Shown here: piece by piece, positions 38,248-41,221 of the stretch
Layout: each line of letters begins with the position of its first letter
Numbering within the stretch: the stretch's first letter is position 1
Assembly: GCF_000018405.1 (NCBI RefSeq)
Contig: NC_009943.1
Coordinates: 2,235,001 to 2,299,000 of the forward strand
Direction of reading: 5' to 3'
DNA: 64,000 nucleotides
Source: Desulfosudis oleivorans Hxd3
Lineage (GTDB): Bacteria > Desulfobacterota > Desulfobacteria > Desulfobacterales > Desulfosudaceae
Program-made: the position numbers and the translations under genes
Notes under the pieces: generated by a model
The model's input: only the letters and a program-made list of their open reading frames with translations
Told to the model about the DNA's origin: nothing
The model's database searches: none

Positions 38248-40494
38248 CTACATCCGCATCCGCTGTTTATAAAGCCGCAGGCTGTTGGAGACCACGGAGA
38301 TACTGCTGGCCGCCATGGCCAGGGCCGCCAGCATGGGATGCAGCTGCCGCAGCAGACCGGGAAGGGATTCAAAGGGATACAGCACGCCGGCAGCCACGGG
38401 AATCAGGATCACGTTGTAGCCAAAGGCCCAGAACAGGTTCTGCCGGATGGTGCGCAGGGTCTGCCGGCCAATGGACAGGGCCCGGCCCACCCCCTCCAGG
38501 TTGCCGGAGGAAAGAACAATATCGGCGGTTTCAATGGCCACGTCCGTGCCGGTGCCGATGGCAATGCCCACATCCGCTTTTGCCAGTGCCGGCGCGTCAT
38601 TGATGCCGTCCCCCACCATGGCCACGCGGCTTCCTTTCTTCTGAAGGTCTGCAATGGCCGTTGCTTTTTCTTCAGGTTTTACGTCGGCCATCACCTGATC
38701 AATGCCGGCCTGAGCCGCGATTTTTTCAGCGGTTTCCCGGTTGTCGCCGGTGAGCATCACCACGTGCATGCCCATCTCCTTAAGCTGCTGCACCGCGCCG
38801 GCCGATTCAGTTTTGAGTCTGTCGGCCACGCCGATCAGCCCCATGGGACGGTCATCAATAAACACCGCCATCACGGTCTTGCCCTGTGACCTTAATTTTT
38901 CCATGTCGGATTTAAGGCCACCCAGGTCCATACCCAGGCCTTCAAACCACCCGGGCTTGCCCACCTTCACGTTCCGGCCCTCCACCCGGGCAGACACCCC
39001 CATGCCGCTGACCGACTGAAAGTCCTTCATTTCCGGCAACTCCAGAAACCGGTCCCGGGCCGCGGAGACCACGGCCTTTCCCACCGGATGTTCTGACCCG
39101 GTCTCCACGGCCGCGGCCAAGGCAAGAAACCGGTTTTCGGTATCGCAACAGGTCTTGTTGAAAAGGACGTCCACCACCACGGGCCGGCCTTCGGTCAGGG
39201 TGCCGGTCTTGTCCAGCACCACGGTGTCGAGGCGTGCCGATGTTTCAATGGCCTCGCCCCGGCGAAAGAGAATGCCGGTTTCCGCGGCCCGGCCGGTGCC
39301 GGCCATGATGGCCGTGGGCGTGGCAAGACCCAGGGCGCAGGGGCAGGCAATCACCAGCACCGCCACCAGCCGGATCATGGCAGGCACGAACTCGCCTGTC
39401 GTGGCCCACCAGACGCCAAAGGTCACAAACGCGATCCCTATTACCGCCGGCACAAACACCGCCGCCACCCGGTCGGCCATGGCCTGAATGGGGGCCCGTC
39501 CGGCCTGGGCCTCCTGGACCACGCGAATGATCTGGGCCAGCACGGTCCGGCTTCCCACGGCTGTTGCCTCAAAGTGAAGCACACCGTCGTTGTTGATGGT
39601 GCCGCCCACCACCTTGTTGCCCGGCGCTTTTTCCACGGGAATGGGTTCGCCGGTGAGCATGGACTCGTCCACCGAAGATCGTCCATCCCTGACCACGCCG
39701 TCGGCCGGAATGCGTTCGCCCGGCCGCACCACCACCAGGTCTCCGACGACCACGTCCCCGATATCAACAGGGGTTTCGACCCCGTTTTTGAGCACAATGG
39801 CGGTTCTGGGCCGCAGGCCGATCAGTTTTTTAATGGCGCCGCTGGTGCGGCCCTTGGTCCGGACCTCCAGCAGTTTTCCCAGTTTGATCAGGGTGATAAT
39901 CACGGCCGCGGTTTCAAAATAGACATGGTCCCCCAGTACCGGAAAAATAAGCAGTGCTGTGGAATAAAAATAGGCCACCGACGATCCCATGGCCACCAGC
40001 ACATCCATGTTGGCGCTTCTGTTCTTCAGGCTTTTCAGCCCGCCGGTGTAATAATCCCACCCGGTGTAAAACTGGACCGGCGTGGCCAGGGCCAGAAAGA
40101 GCCAGTTCATCAGGGGATGGTGGCTCCAGGCGCCCAGCAGGCCGAAATCCCGGCCCATGGAAAGCACAAACAGAGGGATGGTGAAAATCGCGCCCACCAC
40201 CAGGTGCCGGGTCTGAAGTGCGATGGCCGCCTCCCGTGCCGCCTGTTCCCGGTCGTCTCCCTCCTCGCCTTCGGTGACCGGCAGGGCCCCGTAGCCGGCC
40301 TTTTCGATGGCGGCCACAATTCCCTCCAGAGAAAGGACGTCCGGATCGTAGGTCACCGCAACCCGCTCGGTGGCAAAATTCACCGACGCGCTGGCCACGC
40401 CGGCGGTCTTTTTGTTCAAGGCCCGTTCAATGTTGGCCGCGCAGTTGGCGCAGGTCATGCCGGTGACGGCAAGGGTGGTGGTTTTTTCGGTCAT
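38248..40494 (-). CDS. copA: Copper-exporting P1B-type ATPase
   Basis: 748 residues. One N-terminal HMA metal domain ([15 protein letters not shown], CxxC at about 14-17), membrane helices, the metal-site CPC in [14 protein letters not shown], phosphorylation motif DKTGTLT, HP motif [11 protein letters not shown], and the [10 protein letters not shown] hinge. It pumps Cu(I) out of the cytoplasm at the cost of ATP. It lies 28 bases after copZ, itself 13 bases after the 56-aa Sec-containing gene, forming one copper operon. No copper-sensing regulator (CsoR/CueR) is adjacent. Confidence 0.95.
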
Positions 40495-40522: not shown

Positions 40523-40726
40523 TCACGCGGCCGGGTAGTTGATCTCTTTCAGCACGGCCCTTATTCCATCCAGGGTGGCGGGCGGGGCCCAGTCAACGGT
40601 AATGGTCTTTGCCTCCGGGTCGCCCTGAACCCGGGCAACGCCTTCGATCTCACCCAGCTCACGGCTGATGGTCATCACGCAGTGGCCGCAGGTAATATTG
40701 GGAATGTTTAATGTTGTTGTTTCCAT
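40523..40726 (-). CDS. copZ: Copper chaperone, HMA domain protein
   Basis: 67 residues, a single ferredoxin-like HMA domain with the metal motif [10 protein letters not shown] (CxxC) and the expected length of CopZ. ATG 40726 follows ACGGAGG by 7 bases; the longer frame upstream overlaps the previous gene's end and lacks a site. It would carry Cu(I) to CopA encoded next. Confidence 0.9.
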
Positions 40727-40739
40727 AACAGCACCTCCG

Positions 40740-40910
40740 TTATTTTTCAACGGCCTGTTCGGTCTTCTCGATCTGGCCGGCTTCCACTTTTTTGTCTGTC
40801 ACCTGACAGGCATTTCGCATTCAGGTGGAAATGCCCATTTTGGGCAAAATCACCAGCTGCATGAGAAAATAAACAGCGATAATGCCTCCAAAAATCAATA
40901 TCTCTTTCAT
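40740..40910 (-). CDS. Small membrane selenoprotein heading the copper operon (TGA = Sec)
   Basis: The frame from ATG 40910 (AAGGAGCAG before it) gives 29 residues with one membrane helix (ILIFGGIIAVYFLMQLVILP), then in-frame TGA at 40823-40821, then 26 more residues to TAA 40742-40740, just 13 bases before copZ. Read through, the product is 56 aa: ...PKMGIST-U-MRNACQV... with Sec30 and Cys35 forming a U-x4-C pair outside the membrane, and a charged tail. A hairpin with a GGU loop follows the TGA. The tail makes sense as coding sequence up to the ribosome site of copZ. Role unknown; a metal-binding or redox partner of copper export is likely. Alternative: two unrelated peptides with restart at the ATG next to TGA. 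Confidence 0.72.
40796..40823 (-). promoter_or_regulatory. Sec codon and SECIS-like hairpin of the copper-operon gene
   Basis: TGA (40823-40821), 11 bases, then CTGTC (40809-40805), loop AGGT, GACAG (40800-40796). Stem and GGU loop position agree with the bacterial SECIS pattern and with the hairpin of the other TGA gene at 20280-20314. Confidence 0.68.
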
Positions 40911-41221
40911 CTCTGCTCCTTTTTTATGTGTGTTCATCCGGTTGTCGGTTATAAAAAGATAAGATCAGTTTAACATAAAGCAACTGTTTACAAAAACAGG
41001 GGAAGCCGGCCCTCTTTTTTTTACCCTCTCCGAACCGTCCCTGCCGCCATGGTTCAATCCACCCCTCGTCTTCGCCAGCCTCCTCGTCATCGCCCGGCTT
41101 GCCGGAGAATGACGGGTACGGAATAAATGACGAAAAAGCAAATCACACGTTGCTTTTTGAGACCGTTTTTTTTATTTTATGGTAATGTTTTTGACACTCT
41201 ATCGGGAACAAAGGGGGCACT
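40911..41221. other. Intergenic region between divergent copper operon and CNBD gene
   Basis: 310 bases. It holds an AT-rich stretch with the imperfect palindrome CAACTGTTTACAAAAACAGG (40981-41000) that may be promoter or operator for the copper operon. A degenerate family A fragment (CGTCATCGCCCGGCTTGCC, 41083-41101) lies further right. No gene seen. Confidence 0.5.

Follow-up and report, generated by a model that had tools for sequence, protein, structure and literature searches.

The window analysed here, a 64-kb stretch (64,000 nucleotides) of the genome of Desulfosudis oleivorans Hxd3, contains a small gene with an in-frame TGA, which precedes a copZ-like gene and copA and which we consider to encode a selenocysteine (Sec)-containing membrane protein. 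The features of the locus are as follows.

40740..40910, minus strand: gene for the predicted 56-aa membrane selenoprotein (ATG 40908-40910, TAA 40740-40742; relatives with matching TGA)
40916..40921, minus strand: Shine-Dalgarno-like AAGGAG, 5 nt upstream of the ATG, by direct reading
40836..40904, minus strand: predicted transmembrane helix, residues 3-25 (modelled as helical by AlphaFold2; mean pLDDT 94 for the first block of ten residues and 87 for the second)
40821..40823, minus strand: TGA, predicted Sec codon, residue 30 (TGA in 139/139 loci, in 88/88 loci that were the best among the matches listed, and in 22 further loci)
40806..40808, minus strand: Cys35 codon, second half of the Sec-x4-Cys pair (four-residue Sec-Cys spacing in 197/218 loci)
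40796..40809, minus strand: SECIS-like hairpin CUGUC-AGGU-GACAG, starting 11 nt 3' of the TGA (family-wide controls below)
40523..40726, minus strand: copZ-like HMA protein (Pfam HMA, 1e-12)
38248..40494, minus strand: copA, copper-translocating P-type ATPase (TIGR01511, 7.6e-185)

The predicted product, MKEILIFGGIIAVYFLMQLVILPKMGISTUMRNACQVTDKKVEAGQIEKTEQAVEK, has 56 residues including U30 and C35. Its first 29 codons specify a single membrane helix, with LPKMGIST as their last residues, and 26 codons lie between the TGA and the terminal TAA; copZ starts at 40726, 13 bases past this stop, giving the order selenoprotein-copZ-copA. A sequence-only reading of the window had proposed this layout for a membrane selenoprotein assisting copper export, and its structural particulars were borne out, namely, the in-frame TGA behind a membrane helix, the 26 codons and 13-base gap to copZ, the Sec-x4-Cys pair (U30/C35 in the translated minus-strand frame), and a hairpin, with a GGU loop, whose start lies 11 nt past the TGA.

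Relatives were searched for by using the protein with Cys substituted at the TGA as the query, a choice that favours relatives with Cys at this position. The aligned column was TGA in all 139 first-round loci, whose letters were read, and in all 88 second-round loci from the order of Hxd3, these being the best among the matches listed. A set of 26 rows, taken from the low end of the profile matches with some higher-scoring ones added, had TGA at the site or one codon beside it in 25 rows, from which L191, L195, and L196 were subtracted as repeats of earlier genomes, leaving 22 new loci. One match, L209, was a permease falsely taken for a family member and was dropped; another locus, L208, has a TAG three codons past the TGA and looks broken. 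Neither TGT, TGC, TAA, nor TAG was seen at the Sec site in the 139, the 88 best listed, and the 22 loci, which come from sulfate reducers and bacteria related to them. By comparison, the final stops of 138 first-round loci (L128 among them being mis-framed) were mixed, with 53 TAA, 48 TGA, and 37 TAG, and TGA at the internal site is thus conserved beyond chance. The sequence-only reading had named a sequencing error as a possible refutation; this is not the case, because the Hxd3 genome is a single contig (3,944,167 bases) and relatives share the identical TGA.

Standard annotation reads such a TGA as a stop, and deposited gene calls would end there, as expected if a short membrane peptide terminated at the TGA and the remainder were non-coding. 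The site, however, is always TGA and never TAA or TAG, and conserved residues follow it, with the Cys after Sec present in 132/138 members. Of the motif residues that precede Sec, P and G are present in 138/138 members and T in 135/138. In a larger set of 218 loci, consisting of 130 first-round and 88 second-round loci (the latter again the best among the matches listed; L048-L056 were excluded, as some may repeat other genomes), the U-x4-C spacing was found in 197, and 5 had no Cys after Sec. Sec was kept and every downstream Cys lost in L096, L122, L123, L127, and L131. A separate variant occurs in the genus g155 (L197, L200, L203, and L204), with two in-frame TGAs, a hairpin after each, conserved residues past the second TGA, and a conserved DGPSC-like end; judged from these sequences, it is a probable double selenoprotein.

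The post-TGA tails also carry an RNA signal. Of 139 tails, 133 had a best hairpin with G within the two opening bases of its loop, compared with 40.1 ± 5.2 in codon-shuffled tails, and GG/GU loops were found in 121 of 139 tails versus 15.1 ± 3.1. With a second control, in which amino acids were fixed and codons were redrawn from the own usage of each locus, the hairpin score of the 218 tails was 15.8 versus 8.3 for the synonymous recodings, with p<=0.05 in 71%. Among 40 tails of one geometry, which were picked for hairpin presence so that the pairing percentage is favoured and double changes less so, pairing was found in 97.5% of cells versus 72.4% after shuffling, and double-sided changes in 76 cells versus 21.8; the covariation of the same tails was 0.777, compared with 0.260 ± 0.025 when shuffled and <=0.204 when slid. 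No Rfam SECIS family gave a match in the 64-kb window, the matches in the region being at chance level (best E 0.054).

Hxd3 was also found to possess the machinery for Sec incorporation: selA (597 bits; cut-off 268), selB (373.7 bits; cut-off 242), and two tRNA-Sec genes (75.1 and 54.7 bits; cut-off 47), both called by ARAGORN as well, so that selA, selB, and selC, for which the sequence-only reading had suggested a search, are all represented. The tRNA-Sec genes are located at 2690342-2690435 and 3561047-3561140 of the Hxd3 contig. In the phylum sample, the selenoprotein gene was present in 162 of 353 selB-positive and 8 of 42 selB-negative genomes (hand count; Fisher p 8e-4). The eight selB-negative carriers are draft or incomplete assemblies (40-530 contigs, 76-98% completeness), and missing sequence explains them only partly, as one is rated 98% complete. 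In-frame UGA, a G-loop hairpin 16-24 nt downstream, and selA/selB/tRNA-Sec are features that the family has in common with bacterial selenoproteins. The phylum-wide invariant TGA, the covarying SECIS-like hairpin, and tRNA-Sec, selA, and selB in the genome therefore give strong support to the proposed membrane selenoprotein, and the 56-aa protein is almost certainly one, as judged at the level of sequence. Together with the conserved residues, the hairpin excess over controls and the Sec machinery make an ordinary stop highly improbable.

Matches in the protein search were obtained in 129 of 395 Desulfobacterota genomes and, within the order, in 225 of 291 genomes; a profile of 138 members found relatives in 170 of the 395. 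Family members are bitopic proteins of 43-75 aa with the motif W-x2-L-[QN]-x2-[IVL]-[LF]-P-[KR]-x-G-[VI]-x-T-U-x4-C, followed by a lysine-rich tail. No relative was found in viral contigs, plasmids, or phages, where plasmid and phage matches reached only E~7, and PHROGs gave a single weak match, to the Hxd3 protein only (phrog_26573, E 0.0022). The Hxd3 protein matched no Pfam and no NCBIfam family at E<=1 and has no HMA domain with CxxC; for the 138 members, the best matches in NCBIfam (E 0.002) and Pfam (E 0.0085) were unrelated membrane families below the family cut-off. Searches of the Desulfobacterota samples revealed no Cys form. The sequence-only reading had regarded a lack of Cys homologues as a refutation, and none was indeed seen, yet the selenoprotein itself is not refuted, the Sec form being conserved in hundreds of genomes. 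With no Cys form seen, Sec appears to be irreplaceable in the family, within the scope of the Desulfobacterota.

In this regard, the family differs from known selenoproteins, all of which seem to have Cys homologues according to the available part of the deep-Sep paper (PMC12013277), where it is also stated that the method may drop selenoproteins lacking them; Desulfosarcina ovata oXyS1 (7,630,248 bases) is included there, with no new selenoprotein reported in that part. Earlier surveys, as far as their available portions go, used ORFs >=90 residues (80 for one case; PMC1242214) or included no such small protein among those listed (PMC1914089). Table 1 of PMC13188914 (2026), in the form available, has 119 prokaryotic selenoprotein families/subfamilies, and, when compared by description, no entry there can be recognised as an LPxxGxxTU protein of 43-75 aa with a single helix. 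We found no paper on this family in the open-access literature. On sequence criteria, the Hxd3 protein apparently belongs to a family of very small bitopic membrane selenoproteins that had not been recognised before.

Whether copper export is the context of the family was evaluated from neighbouring genes, identified by Pfam and NCBIfam checks; flanks were 1.5 to 3 kb, so that neighbour counts are lower bounds, and GTDB families were counted by hand. In the first-round loci, copA adjoined the gene in 1 of 139, Hxd3 only; the number rose with more loci from the order, to at least 9 of the 218 loci with copA close and co-directional (five GTDB families, one order) and at least 11 with copA at any distance or strand. 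The genome G454 (L212) resembles Hxd3, with the selenoprotein first, copZ at +8, and copA at +258, and copA lies upstream of the selenoprotein in L159, L178, L179, L226, and L230, with L179, L226, and L230 having a row of copA, selenoprotein, sigma, and anti-sigma. In L157, copA gives fragmented and incomplete matches, which may reflect faulty assembly or decay of the gene. Because Cu ATPase matches number only 0-3 per genome (10 genomes, at the threshold used), corresponding to ~0.1 chance cases by hand estimate, copA adjacency is above chance. This adjacency, along with the gene order of Hxd3 and G454 and the upstream copA of the five other loci, is what would be expected of a protein dedicated to copper handling, in which Cys and the selenolate would bind Cu(I) for transfer between CopZ and CopA, and for which the remaining neighbours would be coincidental. 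We consider such dedication unlikely, however, given that copA occurs in at least 11 of the 218 loci (at least 9 close and co-directional) whereas FmdB, thioredoxin, and sigma genes are more frequent neighbours, and that the protein is devoid of HMA or a known copper motif. The proposed role as a copper-export partner therefore holds in part: copA/copZ adjacency exceeds chance, but most loci are flanked by FmdB, thioredoxin, or ECF sigma/anti-sigma genes. On this comparison of loci, the copper link is real yet local, and copper would be one setting among several for a wider redox/thiol function.

The commoner neighbours point to thiol and zinc-thiolate proteins. A co-directional FmdB zinc ribbon lies within 600 bases in at least 39 of the 218 loci (12 GTDB families), compared with ~0.3 chance cases per 218 by a hand estimate from the 4-12 FmdB-type ribbons in each of 20 FmdB-flanked genomes; thioredoxin is co-directional within 600 bases in at least 14 loci and present at any position in at least 24. 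An ECF sigma factor is encoded directly downstream in at least 30 loci, its start overlapping the selenoprotein gene, and is followed by a zinc-finger anti-sigma factor in at least 29 (13 GTDB families). RsrA (TIGR03988) was the best model for these anti-sigma factors, with a score below the cut-off; none was found in the Hxd3 genome, an empty result that carries little weight. RsrA/ChrR-type zinc anti-sigma factors and their ECF sigma factors constitute zinc-thiolate redox/metal sensing pairs. In many loci the selenoprotein gene directly shares its operon with a pair of this type (TIGR03988 below cut-off), to which the selenoprotein is an extra component and itself no anti-sigma factor. Two other small proteins adjoin the gene: one of 143 aa directly downstream (L037:993-1421, minus strand, and 10 similar loci), with no Pfam/NCBIfam match in the one tested, and a Cys-rich one of 70 aa and no known family (L059:3158-3367, plus strand, and related loci). 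Neighbours differ by lineage, and co-location is no proof of interaction.

In all 22 loci inspected, the sigma frame has a start within the post-TGA tail, just 3' of the SECIS-like hairpin and 14-59 nt ahead of the selenoprotein stop (L165, L230, L242, and 19 others). A stop codon closes the sigma frame shortly before this start, and the 60 bases past the selenoprotein stop contain no ATG in that frame. Since the sigma start is embedded in the tail, Sec decoding would carry the ribosome across it. The gene might accordingly be viewed as a leader, in which UGA decoding and SelB on the hairpin control whether the gene that follows (ECF sigma, copZ) is translated and the peptide is secondary; that the only sigma ATG starts possible lie inside the tail in 22/22 loci, earlier starts being excluded by in-frame stops, is in keeping with this. 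A leader role is nevertheless doubtful, because the residues around Sec are conserved phylum-wide, even where no sigma gene follows, and the overlap, seen in at least 30 of 218 loci, may be ordinary translational coupling.

The AlphaFold2 model consists of one helix and a low-confidence tail (pLDDT 50-60). In the 218 loci, the residues ahead of the helix have a mean net charge of -0.15 and those behind it +2.5, and by the positive-inside rule, with charge as the basis, the C-terminal part containing Sec is probably cytosolic, like thioredoxin, FmdB, and the sigma pair. Given the 5 of 218 loci without a Cys after Sec, the family as a whole cannot depend on an internal Se-S bond, and the better retention of Sec than of its Cys partner among the 218 loci makes bonding to other proteins or to a metal more likely than a switch that is purely internal. 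The function we prefer, with roughly even chances as judged from sequence, is that of a membrane-tethered selenol relay for redox/metal stress. In such a relay, a selenolate held at the cytosolic face of the membrane, a few residues beyond the helix, would react with or be re-reduced by soluble thiol/zinc-thiolate proteins, with thioredoxin, FmdB-type zinc ribbons, RsrA-like zinc anti-sigma factors, and the metal-binding thiols of CopZ/CopA as candidate partners. Oxidised or metallated Sec would bond with the nearby Cys or a partner thiol and thereby hand on the signal or metal, and thioredoxin would reset it. In Hxd3, the selenoprotein would be co-expressed with copZ-copA, and the stress is probably copper on account of this shared expression. 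A bolder version, a Sec-only membrane selenol sensor that tolerates no Cys form and whose UGA/SECIS also gates the overlapping ECF sigma in response to selenium or readthrough, seems improbable.

SELENOK and SELENOS are small single-helix membrane selenoproteins of eukaryotes, with Sec on a cytosolic tail. The likeness is an analogy of working only, as these proteins belong to another domain of life with another SECIS system. NF041115 (UxxU metal-binding) and NF045683 (MerT/CopZ fusion) likewise are selenoproteins in heavy-metal contexts, but have HMA or MerT folds, and no aligned family member matched either at E<=0.1.

These results add a common, apparently undescribed selenoprotein family, present by profile in 170 of 395 Desulfobacterota genomes. 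Sec was never replaced by Cys in all data searched, which is at odds with the statement in the available part of PMC12013277, and such a Sec-only case, if true, lets one ask what selenium does that sulfur cannot. A blind spot is also indicated, as methods requiring long ORFs or Cys homologues miss tiny Sec-only genes. The operon with ECF sigma and zinc anti-sigma factors represents a testable selenium-redox regulatory circuit, and if the UGA gate is true, selenium decoding itself would govern a redox/metal-stress regulon.
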